Shown: one piece after another, positions 3,322 through 41,110 of the stretch
Layout: each line of letters opens with the position of its first letter
How positions within the stretch are numbered: position 1 is the first letter of the stretch
Source of the DNA: Prolixibacteraceae bacterium
Lineage (GTDB): Bacteria > Bacteroidota > Bacteroidia > Bacteroidales > Prolixibacteraceae
DNA length: 47,431 bases
Direction: 5' to 3'
NCBI GenBank assembly: GCA_019459485.1
Contig: JAIBEZ010000018.1
Span: 1 to 47,431, forward strand
Notes under the pieces: generated by a model
Database searches by the model: none
Seen by the model: only the letters and a program-made list of their open reading frames with translations
Told to the model about the DNA's origin: nothing
Made by a program: the position numbers and the translations under genes

Positions 3322-3330
3322 AAATAACAG

Positions 3331-4462: not shown

Positions 4463-4467
4463 TAGTT

Positions 4468-5605: not shown

Positions 5606-5676
5606 AAAGAAGTTGCCCATAAGGGCGGCTTCTTTTAAACTTCTGCTAATTTAGCGCTTACGTTCTTTGAAAAGAT
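5606..5676 (+). terminator. cassette-boundary hairpin plus conserved motif, copy 3
   Basis: AAAGAAG / GGCTTCTTTT hairpin around TTGCCCATAAGGGC (5606-5635), followed by CTGCTAATTTAGCGCTTA and CGTTCTTTGAAAAG (5642-5676). It has the same order as copies 1, 4 and 5. Confidence 0.65.
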
Positions 5677-5759
5677 GAATTAAAGGCTTTCCCCATAGGA
5701 GGAACGGGAAGGAGGCTTTCCCCGGCTTTACCCAGGAATATAACCGCTACAGCTATTGT

Positions 5760-27265: not shown

Positions 27266-27285
27266 TCTTTTTATGCAGTGATTGC

Positions 27286-28002
27286 TTATTTTACTTTAAT
27301 TGCATTCATTACTTTTTCCTCTGATAATTCTTTGGTGCAGAAGAACCAGTCGTAGCATTTCATGCCCTCTTCTTTAGCCTCCATGCGATCTTTGGCAACT
27401 CCGCAAGATCCGGCTGGAGGTACAATTACAGCATCGCCGGGACGCCAGTCAGCCGGCATGGCAACACTGAAGGCATCAGCCGCCTGAAGAGCGATAACAA
27501 CGCGCATCAGTTCGTCGAAATTACGGCCAAGCGATAGCGGATAATAAATCATGGCGCGGATAATTCCTTTCGGATCGATAAAGAACACTGCACGAACTGC
27601 TTTGGTATTGCTTTCTCCAGGTTGAATCATGCCATATTTTTTGGCAACTTCCATGGTAATGTCTTCAATCAGTGGAAAATTAACTTCCACATTTTTCATT
27701 CCTTTGTATTCAATCTTTTCTTTGATGGTGCGCAGCCATGCAATGTGGCTGTAAAGACCATCAACTGATAAACCAACGAGTTCGCAATTGAATGCACGGA
27801 ACTCTGCTTCCATCGATGCGAAAGTCATAAATTCGGAGGTACAAACAGGGGTGAAATCAGCAGGGTGGCTGAACAGAATTACCCATTTCCCTGAATAATC
27901 AGATGGGAAGTTGATTGGCCCCTGCGTTGTTACTGCTTTAAACTCTGGTGCAGCTTCGCCAATTCTTGGCAATACCATCGTTACTTGATTTGTTGTTTCC
28001 AT
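27286..28002 (-). CDS. Prx6-type peroxiredoxin
   Basis: 238 residues of the long 1-Cys/archaeal type. The peroxidatic cysteine C54 is in SHPADFTPVCTSEF. The Prx6 C-terminal domain has the paired cysteines of MKCYDWFFCTKE, as in hyperthermophilic archaeal enzymes where they resolve the sulfenic acid. It reduces H2O2 and organic peroxides in the cytoplasm. The ferritin-like gene 24 nt upstream on the same strand makes a two-gene peroxide-defence operon. Confidence 0.93.
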   Translation of the reverse strand: METTNQVTMVLPRIGEAAPEFKAVTTQGPINFPSDYSGKWVILFSHPADFTPVCTSEFMTFASMEAEFRAFNCELVGLSVDGLYSHIAWLRTIKEKIEYKGMKNVEVNFPLIEDITMEVAKKYGMIQPGESNTKAVRAVFFIDPKGIIRAMIYYPLSLGRNFDELMRVVIALQAADAFSVAMPADWRPGDAVIVPPAGSCGVAKDRMEAKEEGMKCYDWFFCTKELSEEKVMNAIKVK

Positions 28003-28026
28003 AATTTTAAAATTTAAGGTATTTGT

Positions 28027-28539
28027 TTACATTCTCATTTTCGTAAATTCTTCTTTCATTCTTCTGATATCGGTAAGCCAGTCTTCAATGTCGTTCTCGT
28101 GTTCGAGTTCTTCATTCAGGATTGTGGTAGCCATAGCATGTGTGGTATGGTCTGCTCCACTGGTAAAGTCTGCAATTTCTTTGTACCGTTGAATCGCACA
28201 TCGTTCACCTTTTAAGTTTTGTTCGAGAATAACTTCAACGTAAGGATCAGTTGGAGCATCATAAGAGCAGCGGCTAAGTTTGGGCCACTCTACCGGATTC
28301 AAAACTGGAGTACCACCCAATTGAATGATTCGGTTTACGACCAATACAGCATGTCCCAATTCCTGGTCAGCATGAATTAACAGCTCAGGTTCAACTTCAC
28401 TGCGCATCGGGCCTTCCATTAGTCTTGCGCCAATCCAGTATTGATAATAGGCGAGCCACTCTTCTGCAAGTGCGGCATTTAGCATGTCAATTAATTTCGG
28501 TACATCTAACGACAAAATGTTTACTGCTTGTTTTCCCAT
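28027..28539 (-). CDS. ferritin-like protein resembling Dps-like thioferritin (DPSL)
   Basis: 170 residues forming a four-helix ferritin core. Likely di-iron ligands are E27 (AALAEEWLAYYQ), E60 and H63 (HADQELGHA), E112 (LKGERCAIQ) and the E/H pair in ILNEELEHE near 144-149. Two cysteines, C91 and C114, lie near this centre in sequence; a cysteine pair next to a bacterioferritin-like site is the hallmark of Dps-like thioferritins, which include a Bacteroides fragilis protein. These oxidise Fe2+ with H2O2 and store iron in a 12-mer cage. The neighbour is a peroxiredoxin in the same operon, supporting this role over plain bacterioferritin. Confidence 0.78.
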   Translation of the reverse strand: MGKQAVNILSLDVPKLIDMLNAALAEEWLAYYQYWIGARLMEGPMRSEVEPELLIHADQELGHAVLVVNRIIQLGGTPVLNPVEWPKLSRCSYDAPTDPYVEVILEQNLKGERCAIQRYKEIADFTSGADHTTHAMATTILNEELEHENDIEDWLTDIRRMKEEFTKMRM

Positions 28540-28602
28540 AATTGATAGTTTTTGATTATTGATTGAATCGAAAATTTTTGACCTTTTTTACTAAAGGTGA
28601 AA

Positions 28603-28610
28603 CAAATATA
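28603..28610 (-). promoter_or_regulatory. putative promoter -7 box of thioferritin-peroxiredoxin operon
   Basis: On the minus strand TATATTTG fits TAnnTTTG, 64 nt before the ATG at 28539. It is back-to-back with the DUF134 promoter, so the two divergent operons share about 120 bp. Confidence 0.45.
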
Positions 28611-28641
28611 ACAAAAATAATCACTGTAAGCAAAAGTTCAT

Positions 28642-28649
28642 TATATTTG
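28642..28649 (+). promoter_or_regulatory. putative promoter -7 box of DUF134 operon
   Basis: TATATTTG fits TAnnTTTG. Overlapping it, TTTGTAACGAACAAA (28646-28660) is an imperfect palindrome that could be an operator for the DUF134 protein. A transcript start near 28655 leaves almost no leader for an ATG at 28660 and favours GTG 28675. Confidence 0.45.
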
Positions 28650-28674
28650 TAACGAACAAATGCTCATAATTGTG

Positions 28675-29247
28675 GCGCGACCAAAACGAATACGAAAGAT
28701 GACAAATCCCCCGCATTTCAAGGGATTCAGGCCTATTGGCCTTCCGGCGGAAAACAATCCGGTAGTTTTAGATTACGAAGAATATGAAGCCATTCGTTTA
28801 AGCGACTTTGAATTGAATGGTCATCTGGAGGCTTCACGGATAATGGAGGTTTCGCGTCCAACCTATACACGTATTTATGAAAGCGCCAGACGAAAAGTTG
28901 CACAGGCGTTCGTATTGGGTAAAGCAATCGTTTTTGAGGGAGGTAAAGTGTATTTTGACAGTGAATGGTATTCGTGCAATAGTTGTAGATGTTATTTCAA
29001 TCACCCGGCAAAAGACGAAGAAATCAGAAATTGTACCCTTTGTGGTTCGGCTGACATTGATCAATACATCAAAAATACAACATTTAGTCATTTAGAAGAT
29101 GTTTGCGTTTGTCCAAAGTGTGGATTTGAAAAGGATCATTTATTCGGAACGCCATGTCGGGAGGATGTTTGCCCTAATTGCAATTGTGCTATGATAAGAA
29201 AAGGGACACCGCACCAGCATCAAATGAAAAACAGAAACTGTAATTAA
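28675..29247 (+). CDS. DUF134 DNA-binding regulator with zinc-ribbon tail
   Basis: 190 residues from GTG 28675, giving the family-typical start MARPKRIRKM; ATG 28660 would add five residues. The N-terminal DUF134 domain holds a sigma70-r4-like helix-turn-helix (LDYEEYEAIRLSDF ... ASRIMEVSRPTYTRIYESAR, about 35-75). The C-terminal half carries three cysteine pairs: CNSC (about 104), CTLC and CPKCGF, with CPNCNC at the end. These may bind zinc or an Fe-S cluster. DUF134 genes commonly sit next to NifX-type genes, as here. It probably senses metal or redox state and regulates the following operon, and perhaps the divergent peroxide operon. Confidence 0.85.
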   Translation, partial: ARPKRIRKMTNPPHFKGFRPIGLPAENNPVVLDYEEYEAIRLSDFELNGHLEASRIMEVSRPTYTRIYESARRKVAQAFVLGKAIVFEGGKVYFDSEWYSCNSCRCYFNHPAKDEEIRNCTLCGSADIDQYIKNTTFSHLEDVCVCPKCGFEKDHLFGTPCREDVCPNCNCAMIRKGTPHQHQMKNRNCN

Positions 29248-29257
29248 AAACTAAAAT

Positions 29258-29575
29258 ATGAAAGTAGCAATCACATCAACAGGAAATAGCCCGGAAGCTA
29301 AAATTGACAGCCGTTTTGGTCGTTGTTCGTATTTTGTAATATACGATACTGAAACTCGTTCCACGGAATATATTCCAAACCCAAACAAAGAAAATGTAGA
29401 AGGTGCAGGACCGGCATCAGTTCAGGTTATTGCTTCAAGAGGTGCAGCAAAAGTTGTGTCCGGTGAGTTCGGAGCTAAAGTAAAAGTGCTTTTCGATAGT
29501 CTTCAAATTCAGCTTGTTGTAATAAACGATCCTGAAAAAAAGATAAGTGAAATTATAGAAATGTTGAACCATTAA
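29258..29575 (+). CDS. NifX/NifB-type metallocluster-binding protein (ORP-like)
   Basis: 105 residues, a single dinitrogenase iron-molybdenum cofactor-binding domain (PF02579-like). It shows KVAITSTG start, AKIDSRFGRCSYFVIYD, the GAGPASVQVIASRGAAKVVSG segment and a helix-strand ending. In Desulfovibrio a homologue of this size, the orange protein, binds a Mo-Cu sulfide cluster. The position in front of DUF5320-like and MinD-ferredoxin genes matches that context. Which metal is bound here cannot be told from sequence. Confidence 0.88.
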   Translation: MKVAITSTGNSPEAKIDSRFGRCSYFVIYDTETRSTEYIPNPNKENVEGAGPASVQVIASRGAAKVVSGEFGAKVKVLFDSLQIQLVVINDPEKKISEIIEMLNH

Positions 29576-29586
29576 GAATAGACATC

Positions 29587-29769
29587 ATGCCACAACTAGA
29601 TGGAACCGGTCCCGAAAAGAAAGGTGCACAAACCGGCCGGGGATTAGGAAAATGTAAAAGTGTGCCTTTTGATGAAGCCCTCGAAAAACTTGGGAAAGGT
29701 CTGGGTTTACGTCGCAAAACCGGCGGCGGACAGGGGGAAGGTAAACGCTTGAAAAGCGGGTTGAAATAG
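29587..29769 (+). CDS. small DUF5320-like protein 1
   Basis: 60 residues, starting MPQLDGTGPEKKGAQTGRG with GKCKS near residue 22. The MPxLxxTGPxxxGxxTGRxxGxC head is shared with the next two genes, but this copy is the most diverged. It ends with a Gly/Arg-rich tail (GLGLRRKTGGGQGEGKRLK). These small cysteine-containing proteins accompany NifX and MinD-ferredoxin genes in anaerobes; their function is not established. Confidence 0.75.
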   Translation: MPQLDGTGPEKKGAQTGRGLGKCKSVPFDEALEKLGKGLGLRRKTGGGQGEGKRLKSGLK

Positions 29770-29785
29770 TGTTAACCACAATAAA

Positions 29786-29793
29786 AGGAGGTT
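29786..29793 (+). promoter_or_regulatory. strong Shine-Dalgarno site of DUF5320-like gene 2
   Basis: AGGAGGTT ends a few bases before ATG 29797. Such a full match to the 16S rRNA anti-SD is rare in Bacteroidota and decides this start. Confidence 0.8.
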
Positions 29794-29796
29794 ATT

Positions 29797-30003
29797 ATGC
29801 CAGGATTAAATCAAACTGGCCCGATGGGACAAGGTCCTATGACTGGTAGAAGAGCAGGCCGGTGCAATCCTTCTGTTAAAGAAAATAATAACGATGAAAT
29901 TAAAAATGCAGTAGCTGGTTTGGTTGCTGTTGTTATCATCGGCTTAACAGAACGGGTTTGGAATTGGATAAAAGAAAAGCGACTGAAAAGCGCTTCAAAA
30001 TAG
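29797..30003 (+). CDS. small DUF5320-like protein 2 with membrane segment
   Basis: 68 residues. The head (MPGLNQTGPMGQGPMTGRRA, then GRC) is the DUF5320-like signature. A hydrophobic helix (VAGLVAVVIIGLTERVW, about 38-54) suggests membrane or partner contact. Its 5' end and SD region are almost duplicated in the next gene, so the pair arose by recent tandem duplication followed by tail replacement. Function unknown; a scaffold or chaperone for the metallocluster proteins is speculative. Confidence 0.75.
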   Translation: MPGLNQTGPMGQGPMTGRRAGRCNPSVKENNNDEIKNAVAGLVAVVIIGLTERVWNWIKEKRLKSASK

Positions 30004-30019
30004 TATTAATTATTATAAA

Positions 30020-30027
30020 AGGAGGTT
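30020..30027 (+). promoter_or_regulatory. strong Shine-Dalgarno site of DUF5320-like gene 3
   Basis: AGGAGGTT before ATG 30031, in the same spacing and flanks as the copy at 29786. Confidence 0.8.
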
Positions 30028-30030
30028 ATT

Positions 30031-30264
30031 ATGCCAGGATTAAATCAAACAGGTCCGATGGGGCAAGGCCCTAAGACAGGCCGTCGTATGGGACGATGTA
30101 CCAATTTTGGTGCAAAATTGAATCTTCAACCAGCAACTGACAACGAAAATCCAGAAGTGAAGATTCCTGAAAATATTTTGGGAAGAGGTCTGGGTTTAGG
30201 ACGCGGAAGAGGTGGACGCGGTCAGGGAATGGGACGGCAAAACCGTTTCAGAGGTGGAAATTAA
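30031..30264 (+). CDS. small DUF5320-like protein 3, Gly/Arg-rich
   Basis: 77 residues. The first 20 are almost identical to gene 2 (MPGLNQTGPMGQGPKTGRRM, then GRC). A spacer rich in Asn and Pro leads to a Gly/Arg tail (GRGLGLGRGRGGRGQGMGRQ) that is typical of the family and could bind nucleic acid or acidic partners. The one cysteine of the head, conserved in all three paralogues, is a candidate metal or cluster ligand. Confidence 0.75.
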   Translation: MPGLNQTGPMGQGPKTGRRMGRCTNFGAKLNLQPATDNENPEVKIPENILGRGLGLGRGRGGRGQGMGRQNRFRGGN

Positions 30265-30271
30265 AAAAATC

Positions 30272-30295
30272 AGGAGGGGTCATCAAGCCCCTTCT
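30272..30295 (+). terminator. weak intercistronic hairpin
   Basis: AGGAGGGG pairs with CCCCTTCT around TCATCAAG. The following sequence is not a strong U tract, so it may be a partial terminator or an RNA-stability element that sets the upstream genes at higher expression than those downstream. Confidence 0.4.
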
Positions 30296-30326
30296 CTTTA
30301 TAAATATTAAACTAAAAAATAAACAG

Positions 30327-30689
30327 ATGAACAAACGAATTGCTATTCCGATGGAAAACGGGGTTTTGTGTGCCCATTTTGGGCATTGCCAACAATTTGC
30401 AATTGTTGAAGTGGTAAATGGAGTAATTACTGATTATAAAGAAGAAACACCTCCCGAACATGTACCGGGTTTGTATCCGCGTTGGGTTGCCGGATTCGGC
30501 GTGACTGATGTAATTGGCGGAGGCATGGGCCAAAAAGCGATTGATTTGTTTAATCAGCAAAATATCAATGCTTTTGTAGGCGCTCCAATAAAATCGGCCA
30601 GAGAATTGGTCAGTGATTTTATTGAGAACAAACTTACTCTGACTGCAAATTATTGTAATCACGATGGAAACCACGAGTGTAATCATTAG
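30327..30689 (+). CDS. NifX-type metallocluster-binding protein with His/Cys tail
   Basis: 120 residues. PF02579-like fold: RIAIPMENGVLCAHFGHCQQ, FAIVEV, GGGMGQKAIDLF and NINAFVGAP. It ends in a His/Cys-rich tail (NYCNHDGNHECNH) able to bind metal, plus C14/C21 in the CAHFGHC motif. It is a second, different NifX-type protein next to the first, as in ORP loci. It probably works with the two MinD-ferredoxin ATPases immediately downstream. Confidence 0.88.
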   Translation: MNKRIAIPMENGVLCAHFGHCQQFAIVEVVNGVITDYKEETPPEHVPGLYPRWVAGFGVTDVIGGGMGQKAIDLFNQQNINAFVGAPIKSARELVSDFIENKLTLTANYCNHDGNHECNH

Positions 30690-30714
30690 ATTGAATGAGC
30701 AATCCGCTTAAATT

Positions 30715-31590
30715 ATGACTGAAAATCCGCCGATGAAAATAGCTGTGGCAAGTGGTAAAGGAGGTACAGGTAAAACGCTTGTTTCAACCAATCTGTTTTG
30801 GGCGATTCAAAATGCCGGAATCTCTGCAACATTGGTTGACTGCGATGCGGAAGAACCCAATGTTGCAGAATTCATATCCGGTGAATTATTGAACAGTTTT
30901 TCAGTCACTCAGAAAATACCGGTTATTGATCCAGAACTTTGTAAATTTTGTGGCAAATGCTTCAATTACTGTAATTATAACGCGATTGTATATCTGCCAG
31001 CCAATCATTTTATTCAGGTGGTCGAAGATTTGTGCCACGATTGTGGTGCCTGTATCGTAGCTTGTAAGTTTGACGCAATTACTGAAAAAGAGAAAGATTT
31101 GGGTGTAGTTCAAACCATGTTCATAAACAGTAATGCCGAAATTATTGAAGCAAGGGCCAATGTGGGAGTTTATTCGCCTGTGCCGGTTATCAAAAAGGCA
31201 ATTAATTCATTAAACGACCGGTCTCTGGCAATTTTTGATTCGCCTCCAGGAATTTCCTGTCCGTTTATTGCTACAGTTGGAGACGCCGATTTTGTGGTTT
31301 TGGTTACCGAGCCAACCCCTTTTGGCCTGAACGACCTGAAACTTTCAGTAGAAACATTGCAGCAACTTAAAAAGCCTTGCGGAGTAATCGTAAACCGTGC
31401 CGGATTAGGCAACCGCGATGTTTATAATTGGTTGAATGATAAAAACATTCCTTTATTGCTCGAAATCCCTTTCGATAGGGAAATCGCCCGCATATATTCC
31501 GAAGGTCATTTGCTGGTGGAGGAAAAGCCTGCTTATCAGTTTCAGTTTATAGAATTATTAAAAACGATCGAAAGGATAGTCAAAATATGA
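30715..31590 (+). CDS. MinD/Mrp-type ATPase with inserted 2x[4Fe-4S] ferredoxin domain, 1
   Basis: 291 residues. A deviant Walker A, SGKGGTGKT (about 13-21), marks the MinD/ParA/Mrp clan. Two tetracysteine motifs follow, CKFCGKCFNYC and CHDCGACIVAC (about 78-88 and 105-115), the inserted bacterial-ferredoxin domain. The rest is P-loop (DSPPGISCP, VTEPTPFGLNDL). In the Desulfovibrio ORP complex two ATPases of this design associate with the orange protein. ATG 30733 (MKIAVASG) is an alternative start. It overlaps its paralogue by 4 nt (ATGA). Confidence 0.92.
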   Translation: MTENPPMKIAVASGKGGTGKTLVSTNLFWAIQNAGISATLVDCDAEEPNVAEFISGELLNSFSVTQKIPVIDPELCKFCGKCFNYCNYNAIVYLPANHFIQVVEDLCHDCGACIVACKFDAITEKEKDLGVVQTMFINSNAEIIEARANVGVYSPVPVIKKAINSLNDRSLAIFDSPPGISCPFIATVGDADFVVLVTEPTPFGLNDLKLSVETLQQLKKPCGVIVNRAGLGNRDVYNWLNDKNIPLLLEIPFDREIARIYSEGHLLVEEKPAYQFQFIELLKTIERIVKI

Positions 31591-32453
31591 ACGAAATAGT
31601 AATTCTTAGCGGTAAAGGTGGAACGGGTAAAACAAGCTTAAGTGCAGCATTTGCAACTTTACATAAGAATACGATTGTTGCCGATTGTGACGTAGATGCG
31701 GCAGACCTCCATTTGATTTTGCAACCTGTAAACTATTACGATCGGAATTTTACTACCGGACATAAAGCGGTAATCAATTATCAAACCTGCACCAACTGCG
31801 GACAGTGTATTGATTATTGCCGCTTCGATGCGATCTCATTCCGGGGTGAAAAAGTTATAATCTCCGAAATATCGTGCGATGGCTGCAAATTGTGCTCTCG
31901 AATTTGCCCATCCCATTCTATTCAAATGATTCCAAGCGATAAAAGTCGTTGGTATGCCGGTAATTACCGCAGTGGAAAAATGGTTCATGCACGGCTTGCT
32001 CCAGGTGAAGAAAATTCGGGCAAACTCGTCAATGTAGTACGCGAACATGCCCGAAAAACTGCACAGGAAACAGGCTGGGATAATATTATCATTGATGGGC
32101 CTCCCGGAACAGGGTGTCCGGTCATTTCATCGGTTACCGGAACAAACAAAGCAATTATTGTTACCGAGCCAACCAATTCCGGTTTTCATGACATGAAACG
32201 TGTACTCGAAATCACGGCTAACTTCAAAGTGAAAACGTATGTCGTGATCAACAAATACGACCTCAATGAGTCAATTTCCAACAAGATAGAAAATTGGTGT
32301 GTGGAAAATGGTATTCCGGTTATCGGAAAGATTGCCTTTGATCCTGAAATCGTAATGGCAATGATCAACTGCCAAAGCATTAACGAATGGCGGCCTGAAT
32401 CAGAAACGAGTAGGGAAATATGTAAAATTTACAACCAAATATACAATGAATGA
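31587..32453 (+). CDS. MinD/Mrp-type ATPase with inserted 2x[4Fe-4S] ferredoxin domain, 2
   Basis: 288 residues, paralogue of the preceding gene and coupled to it by ATGA. Walker A LSGKGGTGKTS (about 7-17), ferredoxin motifs CTNCGQCIDYC and CDGCKLCSRIC, then DGPPGTGCPV and VTEPTNSGFHDM. The two proteins probably form a heterodimer in which ATP binding gates electron or cluster transfer to a NifX-type acceptor. It ends in a second ATGA overlap with the next gene. Confidence 0.92.
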   Translation: MNEIVILSGKGGTGKTSLSAAFATLHKNTIVADCDVDAADLHLILQPVNYYDRNFTTGHKAVINYQTCTNCGQCIDYCRFDAISFRGEKVIISEISCDGCKLCSRICPSHSIQMIPSDKSRWYAGNYRSGKMVHARLAPGEENSGKLVNVVREHARKTAQETGWDNIIIDGPPGTGCPVISSVTGTNKAIIVTEPTNSGFHDMKRVLEITANFKVKTYVVINKYDLNESISNKIENWCVENGIPVIGKIAFDPEIVMAMINCQSINEWRPESETSREICKIYNQIYNE

Positions 32454-32839
32454 CTAATACATTAATTCATATTGCATTATATATAAACAAAAAGGATGTT
32501 GATTCATTTTATTTGGATGTTCTTCATGGGGAAATTACCAGAACATTTGAACTTTCAAAAGATGTTTCGTCAGACATTTTTAATATTGATAAAAATGTGA
32601 AAGTGGTTCAGGTTTCTTGCAATGGAATTGATTTTGAGTTGTTTATTGATGATGATCCTCAGTTGCCAACTTTTGCCCATGTTTGTTTTTATTCTGAGCA
32701 GGCACAAAAAATTAAGGAAAGAGCAAATCAGAAAGGTTATCGTACCCATTCACACAAAAATAACTCAGCGGAAACATATTTCATTCGAGATGGAAACTAT
32801 AATCTGTTTGAGATTAAACAAGAAAGGAATACTCCATGA
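32450..32839 (+). CDS. VOC-fold (glyoxalase/dioxygenase-like) protein
   Basis: 129 residues with paired beta-alpha-beta-beta-beta patterns: IHIALYINKKDVDSFYLDVL and TFAHVCFYSEQAQKI, and a final IRDGNYNLFEIKQ strand. This is the layout of vicinal-oxygen-chelate proteins. Metal ligands are plausible at H7, H77 and a C-terminal Glu but are not fully certain. Both flanking junctions are 4-nt overlaps, so it is an integral part of the operon. Reaction unknown. Confidence 0.7.
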   Translation: MTNTLIHIALYINKKDVDSFYLDVLHGEITRTFELSKDVSSDIFNIDKNVKVVQVSCNGIDFELFIDDDPQLPTFAHVCFYSEQAQKIKERANQKGYRTHSHKNNSAETYFIRDGNYNLFEIKQERNTP

Positions 32840-33774
32840 TCAGTTTTGGACCAATACCATCACGCCGGTTAGGTAAAAGCCTGGGAATAAATAATATCAG
32901 TTCTCAAAAAGTTTGTACTTATTCCTGCATTTATTGCCAGGTTGGAATAACGAATAAGTATAGCGCCGACCGCACTTCGTTTTTTGAACCTTCGGTGATT
33001 TATGATGAGGTTAAAAAACATTTGCAAAAACTTGATGCGATTGATATGCCAGATTATTTGACTTTTGTATCAAATGGTGAGCCTACCCTGGATATTAACC
33101 TTGGAAAGTCGATTGAAATTCTAAAGACATTTAACATCCCGATTGCTGTAATCACCAATGGTTCGATGTTAAACGACTCATTGGTTCGCGAAGAATTAAG
33201 TCATGCAGATTGGGTTTCGGTAAAGATTGACACTGCCGATAAAGAAACCTGGAAAACATTAAACAGGCCTTTGGCAAAGCTTGATTTCGACCATTATAAA
33301 AATGGGTTGCTTAAATTCTCGCAAGAATTTAAAGGAAAATTAGTAAGCGAAACAATGCTGGTAAAAGGCGTAAATGATTCTCCTGAAATTTTACATCAAA
33401 CCGCTGAATTGGTTTTATCAATAAATTCATCCACTGCCTATTTGTCAATTCCAACGCGGCCACCTGCAATTGCCACGGTAACTGCTCCCGGTGAAAGTGA
33501 GATCAATGCAGCCTATCAAATTTATACTGAAATGGGATTAAATACCGAGCTTATGCTTGGTTTTGAAGGAACGAATACAGGATTTACAGGCAATGCGATT
33601 GATGACATTATAAATATCTGCACCGTTCACCCCATTCGGGAAGATACCATGCAGGAGCTTTTAAGAAAGGACAATGCTGATCCCATGATATTGAAATCGT
33701 TGATTCATGGCAAGCATATTCAGCAGGTGAAATATGGGTCAAACACATTTTATATTCGCAAATTTCATAGTTAA
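32836..33774 (+). CDS. radical SAM protein (wyosine-type family)
   Basis: 312 residues. The start SFGPIPSRRLGKSLG and the cluster motif C27-x3-C31-x2-C34 (CTYSCIYC) match the radical SAM group related to TYW1-like wyosine proteins. GEPTL (the SAM-contacting GGE-like motif) and VITNGSM follow. The catalytic barrel runs to about residue 220, and a C-terminal segment (TVHPIREDTMQELL) looks like a winged-helix. It generates a 5'-deoxyadenosyl radical, with unknown substrate. Its place between ferredoxin-type ATPases and an Mrp scaffold suggests a role in cofactor or cluster modification. Confidence 0.88.
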   Translation: MISFGPIPSRRLGKSLGINNISSQKVCTYSCIYCQVGITNKYSADRTSFFEPSVIYDEVKKHLQKLDAIDMPDYLTFVSNGEPTLDINLGKSIEILKTFNIPIAVITNGSMLNDSLVREELSHADWVSVKIDTADKETWKTLNRPLAKLDFDHYKNGLLKFSQEFKGKLVSETMLVKGVNDSPEILHQTAELVLSINSSTAYLSIPTRPPAIATVTAPGESEINAAYQIYTEMGLNTELMLGFEGTNTGFTGNAIDDIINICTVHPIREDTMQELLRKDNADPMILKSLIHGKHIQQVKYGSNTFYIRKFHS

Positions 33775-33777
33775 ATT

Positions 33778-34293
33778 ATGATCGTACCTATTATACTATA
33801 TGGCTCATCCATACTCCGCAAACATTCGTTCGAGGTAACAGGAGATGATAATCCCGTAAAATTGGCTGAAGATTTATTTGATACCCTCAAAAAGGCCGCG
33901 GGTATTGGTTTGGCCGCACCACAGGCTGGAATATTGAAAAGAGCCTTTGTAATAGATACCTCGCCTTTTTCAGATGATGATAATTTGGTTCCGAAATACG
34001 AACAAGCTTTTATAAACCCTGAAATAATTGGACTAAGCGCTAATAAAACTTACTATGAAGAAGGTTGCCTTAGTATTCCGGGAATATTTGAAGAAGTTTT
34101 TCGCCCAAAAAAAATCACTGTCAGGTATTTCGATATAAACTTTAATCTTATTGAAGAAGATCTTGATGGGTTGAAAGCCCGCATTTTTCAACATGAATAC
34201 GATCATTTGGAAGGTATTCTTTTCATCGATAAACTAAGCCCTTTGAAAAGGAAAATGCTGGCAGGTAGATTAAATAAAGTTATGAATTCATAA
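33778..34293 (+). CDS. def: peptide deformylase
   Basis: 171 residues with the three deformylase motifs: GIGLAAPQAG, EEGCLSIPG (metal Cys) and HEYDHLEG (HEXXH, both His metal ligands). It removes the formyl group from nascent proteins with Fe2+ at the active site. It starts 3 nt after the radical SAM gene and is embedded in an iron-sulfur operon, not next to fmt or the other usual partners. It may be a second def copy specialised for this locus or the sole housekeeping one. Confidence 0.93.
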   Translation: MIVPIILYGSSILRKHSFEVTGDDNPVKLAEDLFDTLKKAAGIGLAAPQAGILKRAFVIDTSPFSDDDNLVPKYEQAFINPEIIGLSANKTYYEEGCLSIPGIFEEVFRPKKITVRYFDINFNLIEEDLDGLKARIFQHEYDHLEGILFIDKLSPLKRKMLAGRLNKVMNS

Positions 34294-34301
34294 AACCAAC
34301 C

Positions 34302-35126
34302 ATGGAAAAGAAACTCCCAATTGAAAAAACAGTAATGTCCGGCATTAAAAACATGATCATGATTGTATCGGGCAAAGGTGGGGTGGGGAAATCGACAGTT
34401 GCAGCAGGAATAGCTATGTCGCTGGCAGAAGAAGGTTATTCTGTCGGTTTGCTTGATGCTGATATTTTTGGTCCTTCAGTGCCAACTTTAATGAACCTGC
34501 ACGATGTGGAACGTCCGTTTTTGGTAGAAAAAGACGGAAAGCAAGTTATGGAACCTTATGTGCGTTTCGGGATCAAAGTGATGTCCATCGGATTCTTTTT
34601 CAACCCTGAACAGGCTGTTATCTGGCGGGGACCAATGGTATCAAATGTGCTGAAACAACTCATCACTGAAACGAACTGGGGAGAGTTGGATTATTTGATT
34701 ATTGATACTCCACCCGGAACAGGAGATATTCACATCACACTCCTTCAGCAGTTTTGCATAACCGGGGCGGTGGTGGTTACCACGCCGCAATTGGTTGCTA
34801 TTGCCGATGTTCAGAGAGCAATCAGCATGTTGCACGATCAAACGATTGGGGTTCCGGTATTGGGAATAGTTGAAAATATGGCATGGTTTAGTCCATCCAA
34901 ACATCCTGATGAAAAATATTTTTTATTTGGACAAGGAGGAGGGGAGTTGTTGTCGAAAACTTTCAACGTTCCATTAATTGCGCAAATTCCAATGAATGAA
35001 AACATTTGTGCAAGCTGCGACGGGGGAAAACTCAATGAACTGTTTAATGACAGCGAAATCAGAGCAGGATTTGACAGTTTAACCGATCGTTTACTCAGTT
35101 TAACTGAAACAATAACAGAATGTTAG
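34302..35126 (+). CDS. Mrp/ApbC-family Fe-S carrier ATPase
   Basis: 274 residues. Walker A SGKGGVGKST, switch DADIFGPSVPT, WRGPMVSNVLKQL and DTPPGTGDIHIT are Mrp/NBP35 hallmarks. The usual CPxC-type bridge is not evident; a CASC pair is present near the end (ENICASCDGGK). Such proteins hold and transfer [4Fe-4S] clusters between ATP-dependent dimer states. It lacks the ferredoxin insert of the two upstream MinD-type proteins, so the cluster encodes three distinct ATPases of this clan. It is directly abutted by the next gene. Confidence 0.92.
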   Translation: MEKKLPIEKTVMSGIKNMIMIVSGKGGVGKSTVAAGIAMSLAEEGYSVGLLDADIFGPSVPTLMNLHDVERPFLVEKDGKQVMEPYVRFGIKVMSIGFFFNPEQAVIWRGPMVSNVLKQLITETNWGELDYLIIDTPPGTGDIHITLLQQFCITGAVVVTTPQLVAIADVQRAISMLHDQTIGVPVLGIVENMAWFSPSKHPDEKYFLFGQGGGELLSKTFNVPLIAQIPMNENICASCDGGKLNELFNDSEIRAGFDSLTDRLLSLTETITEC

Positions 35127-35576
35127 ATGGATAAGATTACAAAACAAGAGGCGAAAGATAAAGCAGTAGCTTTATTTGACGAAGGTTATGCCTGTTCTCA
35201 ATCGGTTTTACTGACTTTTGCCAGTCAGTTTGATCTTGATGAAAAAACTGCAAAACTCATTTCTTCAACCTTTGGTGGAGGTATGGGACGCTTGCGTGAA
35301 AAATGTGGCGCTGTAACTGGCGGATTCATGGTTCTGGGTCTTAAATTTGGCAATGAAAACCCAAAGGATATGGAAACAAAATTAGCAGCTTACCGGAAAG
35401 TGAGGAATTTAAATCATCTGGTAGAAGAAATTCATGGTACCAGTAGTTGTGGCGGGATACTTAAAAAAATTGCCACTGAGGCTGACGTTGCCGAGCGAAA
35501 GCATCATAAAATCATTTGCAGAAGAGTAGTTGGCAACGTAACGGAACAATTGTATGACTTGATAAATACCAAATAA
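35127..35576 (+). CDS. C_GCAxxG_C_C family protein
   Basis: 149 residues with the pattern that names the family: C23 (YACSQSV), C60 in the KCGAVTGG block, C108 (SCGGIL) and a C-terminal cysteine in HKIICRRVVG. It has a FGGGMGRLREKCGAVTGG segment. The four cysteines are candidates for binding a metal or Fe-S cluster. Family members are frequent in anaerobes near redox genes; the function is not known. The start abuts the Mrp stop with no gap, indicating coupling. Confidence 0.88.
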   Translation: MDKITKQEAKDKAVALFDEGYACSQSVLLTFASQFDLDEKTAKLISSTFGGGMGRLREKCGAVTGGFMVLGLKFGNENPKDMETKLAAYRKVRNLNHLVEEIHGTSSCGGILKKIATEADVAERKHHKIICRRVVGNVTEQLYDLINTK

Positions 35577-35582
35577 AAATAA

Positions 35583-36242
35583 ATGAGAATTCATAAAGAA
35601 GGTCGGACGATTGTATTTGGAGTAGTGATTTTCTGTTTGGCCATTATTTTAATAATAGCTTGGTTAACGGCTTTTGATAAATTATCTTCCAAACTAGCCG
35701 GAACGTTTATTGTTTTGGTTACATGCTTTGTTACTTATTTTTTCAGGAATCCGTACCGGCCAATTCAACCTGACCAATCAATAATTTATGCCCCTGCCGA
35801 TGGTCGGATTGTGGATATTGACACTGTTTTCGAAAAAGAATTTCTGATGCAGGACTGCCTGAAAGTTTCCATATTCATGTCGATCTGGAATGTGCATGTG
35901 AACCGATATCCGGTAACTGGTAATATCATTTACACGAAATACCATCCGGGTAATTATTTCATTGCAAGTCACCCCAAATCTTCGGAGCTAAACGAGCATC
36001 AATCAGTGGTAATAGAAACATCCGGAGGTATTTCTATATTGGTTAAACAAATTGCAGGAACTCTTGCGCGCAGGATAATTTGTTATGCAAAAGTGGGTGT
36101 CCAGGCCTTACAAGGCGATGATCTTGGATTTATCCGGTTTGGTTCACGGGTTGATATTTTCATGCCCATAAATACTGAAATACAGGTTAAAATGAATGAA
36201 ACGGTAAAAGGAAACCAAACAATAATTGCCAGATTAAAATAA
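35583..36242 (+). CDS. psd: phosphatidylserine decarboxylase (short form)
   Basis: 219 residues of the short, membrane-associated type. Two N-terminal hydrophobic helices (about 10-50) precede FFRNPYRPI, PADGRIVDID, WNVHVNRYPVTG and RFGSRVDIF. The Gly-Ser in FGSR is the self-cleavage site that forms the pyruvoyl cofactor. It converts phosphatidylserine to phosphatidylethanolamine at the inner membrane. A phospholipid gene in this Fe-S operon is unexpected; the 6-nt gap to the C_GCAxxG gene indicates cotranscription. Confidence 0.92.
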   Translation: MRIHKEGRTIVFGVVIFCLAIILIIAWLTAFDKLSSKLAGTFIVLVTCFVTYFFRNPYRPIQPDQSIIYAPADGRIVDIDTVFEKEFLMQDCLKVSIFMSIWNVHVNRYPVTGNIIYTKYHPGNYFIASHPKSSELNEHQSVVIETSGGISILVKQIAGTLARRIICYAKVGVQALQGDDLGFIRFGSRVDIFMPINTEIQVKMNETVKGNQTIIARLK

Positions 36243-36285
36243 TATTGAAAACTAACTTGAATTATAAAATTAAAAACAAAAAACC

Positions 36286-37641
36286 ATGAAAAGTACAGAT
36301 GTATTGGTTATTGGAGGAAGTGCAGCCGGAATGGTTGCAGCGGTAACCGGAAAAAATTTCTGGAATGAGAAAAGTTTTATCCTAGTGAAAAAGCAAAAAA
36401 ATGTGATGGTTCCCTGCGGAATTCCTTACATTTTTGGCACACTCGACAGCAGCCAGCTCAATATTATGCCCGTTGATAACATGCTGGCAAAAGCCGGAAT
36501 CGAATCGTTGATGAATGAAGTTGTTTCTATTGACAAGGAAGCTAAAATTGCAACCCTGGATGATGGGGAACAAATTAAATACGACAAGCTGGTTATTGCT
36601 ACCGGCTCAAAACCCATAAAACCCAAATGGCTGAAAGGGAATGATTTAGACAATGTGTTTGTGATCCCGAAAAATACGATCTACCTCGATCAAATGAAAG
36701 AGAAAATTCATGGATTAAAGAAAGTCGTGGTTATTGGCGCCGGATTTATTGGTGTCGAATTTTCAGATGAATTGAAAAAGCATGGGCACGAAGTTTTCCT
36801 GGTTGAAAAAGAAAAAGAAATTCTGAGTGCGGCTTTTGATGAAGAAATCGCGTCAAGGATATCCGAAATCCTGAAAAGCAGGGGAGTTAATATTATTACC
36901 GGAAATGGGATCAGCGAAGTGGTCGGGACTACGAAAGTGGAAGGTGTCAGACTTGAGGATGGCGAATTTATTGAAGCTGATGCGGTTATTCTTTCAATGG
37001 GTTATAAACCCAATTCCGAACTGTCCGGAAAATCAGGAATATATGTTGACGAAAGTGGTTTTATTGCTGTTGACGAATACATGCGCACACATGAAAAAGA
37101 TGTATTTGCCATTGGCGATTGTGCACAAAAACGTGATTTTATCACCCGCAAACGGGTTCCAACCATGCTGGCTTCAACCGCTTGTGCTGAAGCACGGGTA
37201 GCAGGGATGAATTTGTTTAACATCCATGTGGTCAAAACTTTTAGCGGTACCATCGGAATCTATTCAACTGCCATTGGCGAATATGCTTTTGGAACGGCAG
37301 GGATTACTGAAAAACGGGCAGCCGAAGAAGATATTTCTGTGACTACCGGATTTTTCGAAGGGGTTGACCATCATCCCGGAAACTTGCCTAAAACGCACAA
37401 ACAGATGGTTAAACTAATTGTGGCCACCTACTCGGGCGTAATTATTGGCGGCGAAGTGATTGGTGGAATAAGTGCCGGTGAATTGACCAATGTCATCGGA
37501 ATTGCGATTCAAAACCGGATGTCAATCAATTCGCTGCTTATCTCGCAGATTGGCACTCATCCCTGTTTAACCGCATCGCCAGCAGCTTATCCGTTAATTA
37601 AAGCTGCCGAAATTATTGCATCTAAACTTCGGAATTTATAA
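36286..37641 (+). CDS. FAD-dependent CoA-disulfide reductase/NADH oxidase-like protein
   Basis: 451 residues. FAD site VIGGSAAGM (about 8-16), redox-active C44 in VMVPCGIPYI, second Rossmann site VVIGAGFIGVE for NAD(P)H, and FAIGDCA. The single active-site cysteine at this position is typical of CoA-disulfide reductases, NADH oxidases and related polysulfide reductases rather than CxxxxC disulfide reductases. A C-terminal dimerisation domain follows. In an operon with metal-sulfide proteins, a sulfur- or polysulfide-reducing role is attractive but inferred. Confidence 0.9.
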   Translation: MKSTDVLVIGGSAAGMVAAVTGKNFWNEKSFILVKKQKNVMVPCGIPYIFGTLDSSQLNIMPVDNMLAKAGIESLMNEVVSIDKEAKIATLDDGEQIKYDKLVIATGSKPIKPKWLKGNDLDNVFVIPKNTIYLDQMKEKIHGLKKVVVIGAGFIGVEFSDELKKHGHEVFLVEKEKEILSAAFDEEIASRISEILKSRGVNIITGNGISEVVGTTKVEGVRLEDGEFIEADAVILSMGYKPNSELSGKSGIYVDESGFIAVDEYMRTHEKDVFAIGDCAQKRDFITRKRVPTMLASTACAEARVAGMNLFNIHVVKTFSGTIGIYSTAIGEYAFGTAGITEKRAAEEDISVTTGFFEGVDHHPGNLPKTHKQMVKLIVATYSGVIIGGEVIGGISAGELTNVIGIAIQNRMSINSLLISQIGTHPCLTASPAAYPLIKAAEIIASKLRNL

Positions 37642-37656
37642 AACAAAACTATAAGT

Positions 37657-38511
37657 ATGCTGGCAGATTACCGTTGTTTCTTTTGTTTCGTTCGTTCGAT
37701 GGAAAAGATGCTCGAAAAGGAGAATTTTGATCCCGACAAAAAGCGTCGTTTTACGTTCGAAATGACCCGTCTTTATCAACAAACTGAAGATGGAACCATC
37801 ATGACCAGCTTTTCGAGGGAACTTTATGCCAGCTTGCGAAGGTATTCCGGTAATCCAGATCCATACAGGGAGATTAAAAAAACGAGCAACGAATTTGTTT
37901 TGGGCTTGTATCCCGAAATGAAAAAACTGGTTCAGGATTCAGTCAATCCTTTTGAAACGGCACTCCGATTGGCCATTTCAGGAAATATTATCGACTACGC
38001 CATCAACGATCAATTCGACCTGAAGGCCACCATCAGTAAAGTTTTGAACTCCGATTTTGCCATCAATCATTCGGAAGCCCTGAGAAAAGCAATCAGTAAA
38101 GCCGAAACGGTTTTGTATCTGGGGGATAACTGCGGTGAAATTGTTTTCGACAAGTTGTTCATTGAAACTCTTGCCCATCCGAACCTGATTTACGCGGTGC
38201 GCGGAGCTCCGGTGATTAACGATGCCACAATGGAAGATGCAGAATTTGTTGGCATGACCAACGTTGCCCGGGTTGTTTCGAACGGATACGATGCGCCTTC
38301 AACTTTGGTTGAACATTGCTCCGAAGAGTTTCTCGAAATTTACAACAAAGCCGATGTGATTATCTCCAAAGGGCAGGGCAATCTGGAAGGATTGTTTGAA
38401 AGCCCGAACCAGCATATTTTCTTTTTACTGATGGTGAAATGTAATGTGGTGGCCGAACGCCTTGGCGTAAAAAAAGATAGTTTTGTGGTAAGACAAAATA
38501 AAGGTAATTAA
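37657..38511 (+). CDS. DUF89/ARMT1-like damage-control phosphatase-like protein
   Basis: 284 residues. An N-terminal Cys pair (YRCFFCFVRSM, C7/C10) precedes the DUF89 core: YLGDNCGEIVFD, VRGAPVINDATMEDA and KGQGNLEGLFE. Family members are metal-dependent phosphatases that remove damaged or side-product phosphometabolites such as sugar phosphates or phosphopantetheine. This bacterial/archaeal AF1104-like type with N-terminal cysteines is often next to MBL-fold and Mrp-type genes. The specific substrate is unknown. It lies 15 nt after the flavoprotein. Confidence 0.85.
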   Translation: MLADYRCFFCFVRSMEKMLEKENFDPDKKRRFTFEMTRLYQQTEDGTIMTSFSRELYASLRRYSGNPDPYREIKKTSNEFVLGLYPEMKKLVQDSVNPFETALRLAISGNIIDYAINDQFDLKATISKVLNSDFAINHSEALRKAISKAETVLYLGDNCGEIVFDKLFIETLAHPNLIYAVRGAPVINDATMEDAEFVGMTNVARVVSNGYDAPSTLVEHCSEEFLEIYNKADVIISKGQGNLEGLFESPNQHIFFLLMVKCNVVAERLGVKKDSFVVRQNKGN

Positions 38512-38512
38512 G

Positions 38513-38932
38513 ATGATTCAAAACACAATGATCCTTCGTCCGCGATACGGAGAGGTTGACCAGATGGGCTATGTTTACCATGCCAATTATGTGAGTTATT
38601 GCCATCAGGCACGCACCGAACTGATGCGAAATCTGGGCATTAACGATCAGGTGCTCGAAGAAAATCAGATCATGATACCCGTTATCAGCATCAACCTGAG
38701 GTATTTGAAAGCCGCCAGATACGATGAATTACTGACCATCCGAACCACACTTCGCGAGATGCCGAAGATTCGCTGTCAGTTCGAATTTGAAATCAGGAAT
38801 GAAACTAATGAAAAAATCTGCACCGCCGTATCCGAGATTGTTTTTGTGGACAGCATTTCCCGAAAACCAATGAGGGTGCCGGAAATTGTTAAAAATGCGA
38901 TGATTGATTATTTCAAACCGGAGGTTTTATGA
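38513..38932 (+). CDS. YbgC-like acyl-CoA thioesterase
   Basis: 139 residues with the 4HBT hot-dog fold. Diagnostic part VDQMGYVYHANYVSYCHQAR holds the catalytic aspartate-equivalent and conserved YHANYV. Strands YDELLTIRTTLREM and KICTAVSEIVFVD follow. It hydrolyses short or aromatic acyl-CoA thioesters. It is separated by only 1 nt from the DUF89 gene and overlaps the MBL gene by 4 nt (ATGA), so it belongs to the same transcription unit. Confidence 0.88.
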   Translation: MIQNTMILRPRYGEVDQMGYVYHANYVSYCHQARTELMRNLGINDQVLEENQIMIPVISINLRYLKAARYDELLTIRTTLREMPKIRCQFEFEIRNETNEKICTAVSEIVFVDSISRKPMRVPEIVKNAMIDYFKPEVL

Positions 38933-39711
38933 AACTGACAGTACTTACAGAAAATATAGCAGGTGGAAAATATTTGGCCGAACATGGCTTGTCGTACCTG
39001 ATTGAACACGAGGATAAAACCATTTTGTTCGATACCGGGCACAGCGATGTTTTTATGCAAAATGCCCGACAAATGGGAATCGAACTGCAAGATGTGGTTG
39101 ATTTGATTGTGTTAAGTCACGGTCATTGGGACCATGGGGATGGTTTGCAATACATCGAAAACAAAACTTTGATTACTCACCCAAATGCTTTTATCAGGCG
39201 AACCCGAAAGAATGGATCGCTCAATATCGGCTTGGCTCTTGATAAAGAAACGCTCGGAAAAAGGTTCAATCTGATCGCTTCAGCAAAGCCATACCAAATT
39301 TCTGAAAGTATTCTATTTCTGGGAGAGATTCCGCGTACCAATAATTTTGAGGCGCAATCCACCAATTTTGCTGATGAAAATGGAGTTGCTGATTTTGTGC
39401 AGGATGATTCGGCTTTGGCAATTGTTCAGGATAAAAGCCTGGTGATTGTTTCAGGATGCGCCCATTCAGGAATTTGCAATATTTGTGAGTATGCCAAAAA
39501 GGTGACAGGTATCTCTAAAATTTCGACGGTAATTGGAGGTTTCCATCTAAAAAACATTGATGAACAAACCCGGCAAACCATTGCATATTTAAAAACCGAG
39601 CAAATCGCAGATATTATTCCGTCGCATTGCACCGAGCTTCCGGCCCTTTCTGCCTTTTATACTGAATTTAAAATTGACCAGCTAAAAACCGGACAAGTTC
39701 TAAGTTTTTGA
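38929..39711 (+). CDS. MBL-fold metallohydrolase
   Basis: 260 residues. Metal motif LSHGHWDHGDGL (HxHxDH, about 63-74), further ligands in SGCAHSGICNI and HC near the end (IPSHCTELPAL). The layout resembles the group annotated as 7,8-dihydropterin-6-methyl-4-(beta-D-ribofuranosyl)aminobenzene-5'-phosphate synthase-like hydrolases, a family name from methanopterin synthesis that need not apply here. It is the last gene of the long run and is closed by a strong terminator. Confidence 0.88.
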   Translation: MKLTVLTENIAGGKYLAEHGLSYLIEHEDKTILFDTGHSDVFMQNARQMGIELQDVVDLIVLSHGHWDHGDGLQYIENKTLITHPNAFIRRTRKNGSLNIGLALDKETLGKRFNLIASAKPYQISESILFLGEIPRTNNFEAQSTNFADENGVADFVQDDSALAIVQDKSLVIVSGCAHSGICNICEYAKKVTGISKISTVIGGFHLKNIDEQTRQTIAYLKTEQIADIIPSHCTELPALSAFYTEFKIDQLKTGQVLSF

Positions 39712-39723
39712 CTACTCATAAAA

Positions 39724-39761
39724 AAAGAGACCGTCTCTTTCTGTTTTGAGACGGTCTCTTT
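39724..39761. terminator. bidirectional terminator between MBL gene and trpB
   Basis: Perfect 14-bp stem AAAGAGACCGTCTC / GAGACGGTCTCTTT with a 10-nt loop and T/A runs on both sides, between converging genes. Confidence 0.93.
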
Positions 39762-39771
39762 CGTAATTTTA

Positions 39772-40986
39772 TCAATCTTTGCGATTTTCCGGAAGTCCGT
39801 ATTTTTCGAGTACAAAGTCAATGTCTTTATCACCACGTCCGCTAAGGTTGATAAGTATTGATTTTTGAGGCTCTTTCTGAGCAAGTTTTAATGCATAAGC
39901 AACAGCATGTGCACTTTCCAATGCAGGGATAATTCCCTCCAACCGGCTCAATTCATAAAAAGCATCAATACATTCTTCGTCTGAAACTACATCGTAATTT
40001 ACTTTTTTCAAATCCTTGAGCATACAATGTTCAGGGCCAACTCCGGGATAGTCCAATCCGCTTGCAACCGAGTAAACAGGCGATGGTTCTCCTTTTTCAT
40101 CTTGCAGAAGATAACACTTAAACCCATGAATTATTCCGGGTGTTCCCTTCGTCATTGTTGCTGCATGTTCTCCAAGATTAAGTGAGTGACCACCAGGCTC
40201 AACACCATACAATTCGCATTCGTCATCTTCGAGAAAAGCGGTAAAAATCCCCATGGCATTGCTACCGCCACCAACGCAGGCCACAACACTGTCAGGCAGT
40301 TCTCCGGTCATTTCAAAGAACTGTTCTTTGGCTTCTATTCCAACTACCCGCTGAAAATCACGAACCATCATTGGAAATGGATGTGGTCCAACCACAGAGC
40401 CAATACAGTAAATTGAGTTAATTGGATCTTCCAGATAAGCTAAAAATGCAGAGTCAACTGCTTCTTTAAGTGTTTTCAACCCATGAGAAACAGGCACAAC
40501 CGTTGCACCCAGGATTTGCATCCGTACAACATTTGGATGTTCTTTGATAATATCAACTTCACCCATGTGGATTTCGCACTCAAGGCCGAAATAAGCAGCA
40601 GCAGTTGCAAGGGCGACTCCATGTTGTCCGGCTCCGGTTTCTGCAATCAGTTTTTTCTTTCCCATGAATTTGGCCAGAAGGGCTTCTCCCATGCAGTGGT
40701 TGAGCTTGTGAGCACCGGTATGGTTCAAATCTTCACGTTTTAGATAGATTCTTGCTCCATATTTATCCGACAGACGGTTGCAATAATAGACAGGAGTTGG
40801 GCGTCCCTGGTAATGTTTACGAATACTTCTAAGTTCTGAAATGAAGTTATGCGACTTACTGATAGCGTAATACGCATCATTAATCTTCTTCATTTCAGCT
40901 TCAAGAACCGGAGGTATAAATGCTCCTCCATACTCATTAAAATATCCTTCTTTGGTAGGGTATTTCTTAAAATAATTTTCCGGCAT
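39772..40986 (-). CDS. trpB: tryptophan synthase beta chain
   Basis: 404 residues. PLP lysine is K94 in [11 protein letters not shown]; substrate site GAGQHG and the phosphate-binding GGGSNAMG follow. The length and motifs fit the TrpB1 form, which makes tryptophan from indole and serine and normally pairs with TrpA. No other trp gene is in the window, so it is separated from the biosynthetic operon or works on salvaged indole. It is convergent with the metal-cluster operon. Confidence 0.95.
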
Positions 40987-41110
40987 ACTGTATCTGTTAA
41001 GTTAATTATGTGTTTTTCTACAAAAAACAAAATTAAAATTTTATCAGTCAATCGTATTATATTCCGGATTTTTTCACGGAAAATAGTACAATTCTTTATT
41101 CACAGGCTTT

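Follow-up and report, generated by a model that had tools for sequence, protein, structure and literature searches.

A large putative member of the modular ORP-type gene clusters in a Prolixibacteraceae bacterium

To our knowledge, the function of the orange-protein (ORP) complex, in which NifX-type proteins are encoded together with ferredoxin-containing MinD-type ATPases, is an open question in anaerobe biology. An operon on contig JAIBEZ010000018.1 of a Prolixibacteraceae bacterium poses this question in an extended form. It lies within the stretch of 47,431 nucleotides (nt) that was analysed as a whole (the window, whose numbering is used throughout; G000 denotes its genome, and further genomes and loci are labelled G and L). 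The first eight genes form a core of the ORP type, encoding a DUF134 protein, two NifX-type proteins, three DUF5320 proteins and two ferredoxin-MinD ATPases. They are followed by ten genes for a VOC protein, a radical SAM protein (rSAM), a peptide deformylase (PDF), an Mrp ATPase, a C_GCAxxG_C_C protein, a phosphatidylserine decarboxylase (PSD), a flavoprotein (FADox), a DUF89 protein, a thioesterase (TE) and a metallo-beta-lactamase-fold protein (MBL). Do these genes make up one pathway, or has a core been joined by changing company? Judged from its sequence, the operon ranks among the large representatives of a class of modular ORP-type (NifX plus ferredoxin-MinD) clusters that draw on a recurrent accessory pool, and not a fixed pathway. 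Conservation is seen in the repertoire of gene types, DUF89 being frequently placed within the core in Bacteroidota, and metal-sulfide cluster handling is the most likely role, to which we give about an even chance.

The recurrence of the accessory genes was established around MinD2, the second ATPase gene of the core (31587-32453), strong relatives of which were found in 21 of 61 genomes, its own included. Using each window protein alone as phmmer query, matches within 10 kb of MinD2 on either strand were counted in three sets of loci. These were 20 related loci (one per other MinD2-bearing genome, the second MinD2 match of G030, on C12, not being among them), 79 loci from named genomes (the best 80 of at least 546 MinD2 relatives, after dropping L071, which shares its contig with L039; many are short contigs) and 40 control windows of 20 kb, for which eleven of the 61 genomes were used (MinD2 is present in nine of these eleven). 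Each of the ten families was found in 0/40 control windows. Among the related and the named-genome loci, respectively, MBL was met in 9/20 and 23/79, the flavoprotein in 8/20 and 13/79, DUF89 in 8/20 and 16/79, the thioesterase in 8/20 and 7/79, Mrp in 4/20 and 29/79 (after MinD-type matches had been filtered out), rSAM in 3/20 and 15/79, VOC in 2/20 and 9/79, PDF in 1/20 and 5/79, C_GCAxxG in 4/20 and 2/79, and PSD in 2/20 and 1/79. The last two are hence rare around the core (6 and 3 of 99 loci). A same-strand count with profiles gave Mrp in 33, MBL in 29, DUF89 in 24, the flavoprotein in 19 and rSAM in 18 of the 99 loci and again 0/40 in the control; these profiles were partly built from the loci counted, a circularity which the single-protein phmmer count avoids. 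The downstream extension claimed by the first-pass annotation is thus borne out as an enrichment of ten families near the core, three of them being second copies of genes found elsewhere in the genome.

At least one of the ten families lies on the MinD2 strand in 31 of 37 named Bacteroidota loci (a group set by hand from record titles) and in 19 of 42 other loci. The fullest case is L068, a Bacteroidales contig where a single co-directional run unites nine of the ten families; the order differs, C_GCAxxG is missing and genes for a Cys/Met lyase, CobA, CGGC, DUF169 and DUF4405 are included. G002, of the same genus as the window genome, shows eight of the ten before its contig ends. L039, from Mangrovibacterium marinum DSM 28823, combines the core with DUF89, Mrp, thioesterase, MBL and flavoprotein genes. 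The protein family of the Cys/Met lyase of L068 occurs in 10 loci, a further family, whose one scanned member is NifU_N-like, in 12, and in L036 a rhodanese-fused relative of the flavoprotein lies downstream of C_GCAxxG. Because the accessory chemistry thereby leans to sulfur and cluster handling (flavoprotein, rhodanese fusion, Cys/Met lyase, NifU_N-like protein), metal-sulfide cluster handling is favoured as the role of these loci. The L068 run is flanked by HdrA/HdrC-like FAD/ferredoxin-type genes (1310-5768 and 20197-20847; assigned by eye, Fer4 plus FAD domains); the CobA-, TrmO-, DUF4405-, Hdr- and NifX-like labels in L138, L141, L151 and L068 were in part likewise given by eye, without a profile.

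Co-occurrence across the 61 genomes, as suggested by the first-pass annotation for rSAM, VOC and DUF89, points in the same direction. MinD2 is present in 6/7 genomes with a close rSAM, in 5/5 with VOC, in 15/20 with DUF89 (two of the 20 being relics), in 5/5 with a second PDF and in 10/13 with a close MBL. With genera as units, one-sided p values were 0.046 (48% identity) or 0.0026 (E<1e-30) for rSAM, 0.004 for DUF89, 0.029 for VOC, 0.029 for PDF and 0.00011 (55%) or 0.00007 (E<1e-50) for MBL; these are indications only, since the identity thresholds of 48% (rSAM) and 55% (PDF, MBL) were picked after the hit lists had been seen, and the rows are related genomes.

The ORP set of Desulfovibrio vulgaris comprises Orp3, Orp4, the small [2Fe-2S] protein Orp5, Orp8 and Orp9/MrpORP. 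Homology places the core with this set, as first proposed, in that paired ferredoxin-MinDs, an ORP-like NifX, a NifX with CxHFGHC and an Mrp are found at one locus. According to PMC6345978, Orp3 and Orp4 carry two [4Fe-4S] ferredoxin motifs each, Orp8 is homologous to proteins carrying a Mo-Cu-sulfide cluster, and in vitro Fe-S passes from MrpORP to the complex of Orp3, Orp4 and Orp8. MinD1 (30715-31590; CbiA plus Fer4) and MinD2 (CbiA/ParA plus Fer4) are ATPases with an inserted ferredoxin domain, Orp3/Orp4-like, and each possesses two CX2CX2CX3C motifs and a deviant Walker A. NifX1 (29258-29575; 105 amino acids (aa), one Cys; PF02579, 52.5 bits) has the Desulfovibrio ORP structure 2wfb as its top PDB match (E 1.1e-9). 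NifX2 (30327-30689; 120 aa) aligns with the Di-Nase half of the MrpORP model NF041136 (positions 265-365, 107.7 bits) and keeps CxHFGHC, the motif with which the Di-Nase domain of MrpORP starts, as CAHFGHCQ; its Cys/His-rich C-terminal end reads CNHDGNHECNH, where MrpORP has CDH. Several differences from D. vulgaris stand beside this likeness. Its orp genes are split between two divergent operons, which include the gene of a sigma54-dependent activator, whereas the window holds one operon, no such activator among the 18 genes and ten genes beyond the Desulfovibrio set. MrpORP (Orp9) is a fusion there, whereas Mrp (34302-35126) and NifX2 are separate here. Both halves of NF041136 have window homologues (Mrp 264.7 bits, NifX2 107.7 bits), but neither reaches the 450 bits required by the full model. 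A straightforward split MrpORP is rejected because Mrp lacks the CXXC. No paper dealing with an ORP locus enlarged in this way was found in open-licence PMC text, as judged by titles and the starts of abstracts.

Between the two NifX genes lie the three DUF5320 genes, a (29587-29769; 60 aa, isoelectric point (pI) 10.2; PF17253, 37.6 bits), b (29797-30003; 68 aa, pI 10.3; 46.4 bits) and c (30031-30264; 77 aa, pI 11.8, with a Gly/Arg-rich tail; 39.8 bits), whose products are cationic and Gly-rich with 1-2 aromatic residues each. A direct repeat of 109 nt, 82% identical (29738-29846 and 29972-30080, in the region of b and at the start of c), suggests a tandem duplication of these genes. The leading gene (PF02001, 70.8 bits against a cut-off of 27) encodes an N-terminal DUF134 domain and, behind it, a C-terminal stretch in which CxxC occurs four times, and is the probable regulator of the locus. 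Translation of it most likely begins with the GTG codon of position 28672, giving 28672-29247, and not position 28675 as initially annotated, because homologues begin with MARPK, MPRPK or MSPRPK. A second DUF134-NifX1 pair of the window genome stands in L234 (G000:C3:36000-50000; 5567-6472 and 192-5233), divergent from a PhsA-type molybdopterin oxidoreductase gene that is accompanied by Fe-S and NrfD genes, with a Sulf_transp gene farther along. A conserved link of this pair with PhsA was not supported, as the pair adjoins PhsA in just 2 of 30 PhsA loci (G000 and G014, with 95% identity between their PhsAs).

All 18 genes lie on the plus strand (28672-39711) with gaps of at most 62 nt, the 17 junctions measuring 10, 11, 27, 27, 62, 25, -4, -4, -4, 3, 8, 0, 6, 43, 15, 1 and -4 nt. 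The 4-nt overlaps described earlier are hence present at four junctions, and the gene count of 17 given with them is to be read as 18, to which the annotation's own list also sums. Each gene named there was found and its family upheld, 17 by Pfam/NCBIfam profile searches and VOC by way of a predicted structure. The VOC gene (32450-32839) gave zero Pfam/NCBIfam matches at E 0.001; an AlphaFold2 (AF2) model built on a four-sequence alignment (mean pLDDT 85) matched glyoxalase-family structures of the PDB in Foldseek (best E 4e-7, TM 0.65), so that its product is predicted to have the paired beta-alpha-beta-beta-beta VOC fold, and H7, E63, H77 and E121 are invariant across the four sequences. For deformylase, DUF89, MBL, rSAM and flavoprotein, the motifs sought were those characteristic of each family. 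The rSAM protein (32836-33774; PF04055, 62.5 bits) has CX3CX2C. The PDF (33778-34293; PF01327, 163.1 bits; TIGR00079 over its cut-off) retains GxGxAAxQ, EGCxS and HExDH as GIGLAAPQ, EGCLS and HEYDH. Next to it, the Mrp/NUBPL ATPase (274 aa; PF10609, 290.6 bits) is followed by the C_GCAxxG_C_C redox-type protein (35127-35576; TIGR01909, 63.0 bits, cut-off 47.4) and the PSD (35583-36242; NF003678, 261.8 bits, cut-off 225).

The flavoprotein (36286-37641), a FAD/NAD(P)H oxidoreductase (Pyr_redox) of the CoA-disulfide/CoA-persulfide reductase kind with PDB relatives 6pfz, 8a56 and 3cgb, keeps the Cys of CGIPY (Cys44), and the CoA-persulfide reductase 8a56 ranks second among its PDB matches. Its score against the NCBIfam CoA-disulfide reductase model (245.9) lies under the cut-off of 458. 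The DUF89/ARMT1-type phosphatase (37657-38511; PF01937, 222.2 bits) aligns with the structures 2g8l and 2ffj over most of its length, with its motifs intact (GDNCGE, NDATMED, KGQGNLE), and stays under the family cut-off of NF040824 (208.7 versus 440 bits). The operon ends with a YbgC/FadM-type thioesterase (38513-38932; TIGR00051, 103.2 bits, cut-off 68.7) and the MBL-fold (Lactamase_B) hydrolase (38929-39711; HGHWDH; relatives 2p4z and 3h3e).

The window genome encodes Mrp, PDF and PSD a second time (at G000:C5, G000:C87 and G000:C80, respectively). Among 13 genomes searched, a second PSD was found in just two, G000 and G059, each of which has a PSD at the locus, and in G002 (76% complete) only the operon PSD was found; in the PSD tree, the four PSDs from operons cluster together, apart from eleven housekeeping PSDs, with support of 100/98. 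Extra PDFs were met in G000, G002, G025 (three in all) and G031 of the 13 genomes, to which the search of all 61 added G030. In the PDF tree, nine operon-type sequences from Bacteroidota are united apart from housekeeping PDFs; the support for this group, 92/94, lies below the starred level of the tree tool. Three of these nine (G025, G030, G031) sit on contigs without MinD genes. An Omnitrophota PDF falls outside the operon group on a very long branch, and only 12% of bootstrap trees unite all ten operon PDFs with this row included. CXXC is lacking in the operon Mrp and, throughout the alignment, in the 34 rows of Bacteroidota type (24 locus-type and 10 housekeeping Mrps), and is kept in 11 aligned rows from other phyla. 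The second Mrp gene of the window genome, a housekeeping one (L223, G000:C5:53501-54247), contains an in-frame TAG and shows as two open reading frames, which reflects either a sequencing error or a pseudogene.

Gene order is shuffled even inside the genus. Of the ten accessory junctions from MinD2-VOC to TE-MBL, four occur in zero runs of other loci and one occurs once, as counted in runs from 96 loci with the window itself left out and with longest-ORF gene picking, which misses genes. DUF89, downstream in the window, often lies between NifX2 and MinD1 in Bacteroidota (NifX2-DUF89 16 times, DUF89-MinD1 14 times). Families are moreover gained or lost, and in G031, rSAM, PDF with VOC, and DUF89 stand on three contigs other than that of the core, yet all are present. 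By the shuffled order and the missing parts, one fixed unit of 17 or 18 genes is rejected. The first-pass annotation had named as its own refutation that only the first eight genes be conserved together and the rest vary freely, and the outcome lies in between, a recurrent pool of gene types being found but neither a constant order nor completeness. ZnuA-type metal-binding genes end two runs of accessory genes, VOC-DUF169 in G031 (L143:7561-9485) and flavoprotein-TrmO-like-DUF4405-like in G030 (L151:7420-11051), hinting at a link with metal uptake.

A number of observations weigh against a common role in cluster handling. Its main rival is a DUF134-controlled regulon in which unrelated anaerobic maintenance and stress genes are gathered by a shared regulator, with NifX-MinD as one customer and no common pathway. 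In G028 (C17), a genome without MinD2, DUF134-DUF89-DUF5320-Mrp-NifX-like-rSAM-CobA-like-flavoprotein lie clustered on one strand, and for this reason the accessory genes may serve a DUF134 regulon and not the NifX-MinD complex. Likewise, C15 of G043 holds accessory genes with DUF134 and DUF5320 and without MinD, MinD2 being on C51, and G025 has DUF134, CobA-like, NifX, VOC, rSAM and PDF genes on C42 and MinD2 on C44. Reduced or relic forms of the locus are found in G009 (L034), G014 (L134) and G007 (L135). The first has the core and lacks the equivalents of window 32421-35132 (VOC-rSAM-PDF-Mrp), by loss or insertion, and of 35568-38336 (PSD-flavoprotein-most of DUF89), where loss is likelier than insertion because a piece of DUF89 remains. 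G014 lacks 27773-35477, 35577-38335 and 39118-39654, and G007 lacks 27274-38498 and 39712-41118. A nearly identical junction joins the end of C_GCAxxG to the end of DUF89 in G009 and G014. Outside Bacteroidota, 23 of 42 named loci show zero of the ten families in reach, some of them on short contigs. The carrier role of Mrp may differ, because the CXXC that holds the bridging [4Fe-4S] of MrpORP is absent; PDF and PSD are without an obvious place in cluster assembly; and a link to sulfur respiration was not supported (MinD2 in 8/17 genomes with a close PhsA versus 13/44 others, p 0.16). The cases of G009, G014, G007 and G028 speak no less for a jointly regulated pool of genes than for one pathway. 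The regulon is further in keeping with the shuffled order and with the divergent peroxiredoxin and ferritin/Dps-like neighbours in G000, G002 and G017, but a loose regulon need not choose the same few families repeatedly, as is observed, and VOC and the second PDF occur only in MinD2 genomes, although the counts are small. It is regarded as possible, and as the less probable of the two.

The remaining proposals were each assigned little probability. That the operon constitutes a complete new metal-sulfur cofactor pathway of anaerobic Bacteroidota, in which the cluster would have a small ligand, organic or peptidic, made or mended by rSAM, PDF, VOC, DUF89 and TE, NifX would be the scaffold and MinD/Mrp would perform insertion, is unlikely. 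Storage of iron and sulfur as in IssA of Pyrococcus furiosus, with thioferrate bound by NifX and the cationic Gly-rich DUF5320 proteins, is rather improbable. In PMC5524996, the ability of IssA to bind thioferrate is connected with a Gly-rich, cationic tail borne by a small domain of the NifX kind, DUF5320 proteins of this character (pI 10.2-11.8) adjoin NifX in the window, and a ferritin-like gene adjoins the operon. However, IssA carries the tail in the same chain, whereas NifX1 and NifX2 have no tail and the cationic part resides on separate proteins, which are poor in aromatic residues compared with the 14 of 70 given for the IssA tail in PMC5524996; two ferredoxin-ATPases, rSAM and PDF would moreover be superfluous for storage. 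A complex for cell division or polar positioning, in which the MinD-like ATPases position cargo and the rest are passengers, was put forward for Desulfovibrio, where ORP proteins are described as putatively taking part in division and MrpORP as polar (PMC3897727, PMC6345978); here it is highly doubtful, given ATPases with two ferredoxin motifs each beside NifX and Mrp, and 0/10 accessory families annotated as division genes. A side branch of nitrogenase FeMo-cofactor synthesis, derived from the NifX/NifB-like small proteins, has the Pfam name Nitro_FeMo-Co in its favour and nothing more. PF00148 matches occur in 4/21 genomes with MinD2 versus 9/40 without it, and the window genome shows no PF00148 match at E 1e-10, by which the nitrogenase link is rejected, its probability being next to nil.

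Under metal-sulfide cluster handling, the reading preferred here, NifX1 and NifX2 would hold a metal-sulfide cluster, perhaps aided by the cationic DUF5320 proteins, while MinD1 and MinD2 would be Fe-S-bearing partners or carriers, as Orp3 and Orp4 are thought to be. Mrp may act as an ATP-dependent scaffold or carrier, and the flavoprotein, being like CoA-persulfide reductases, could convert persulfide sulfur to sulfide for the cluster. DUF134 would control the gene set, and DUF89, VOC, thioesterase, MBL, PDF and PSD may provide repair and upkeep under that same condition, free of oxygen and rich in sulfide. The original suggestion that the genes together serve the synthesis or repair of a metal-sulfur cofactor is a reasonable inference from homology, and kin and gene content suggest an anaerobic host. 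As to control of the operon, 28 promoter-like sites were found in a promoter scan versus 31.2 expected. A sigma54-like pattern with at most 2 mismatches gave 29 matches, which does not exceed chance (24.65), none of them between 27931 and 29446, and a Bacteroidota-type promoter pattern gave 3 versus 2.83 expected. Terminator-like sites numbered 18 versus 10.3 in shuffles (standard deviation 3.6), and the seven on the plus strand fall inside genes. Peroxiredoxin and ferritin/Dps-like genes (27286-28539) adjoin the operon divergently, a pair likewise seen in G002 and G017.

For the biology of these clusters, the locus and its relatives suggest that a metal-sulfur locus can capture additional copies of enzymes from translation and lipid metabolism. 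What had been vague neighbours of the NifX-MinD core is narrowed to recurrent, testable partners, namely DUF89, Mrp, rSAM, the persulfide-reductase-like flavoprotein and the second PDF and PSD.

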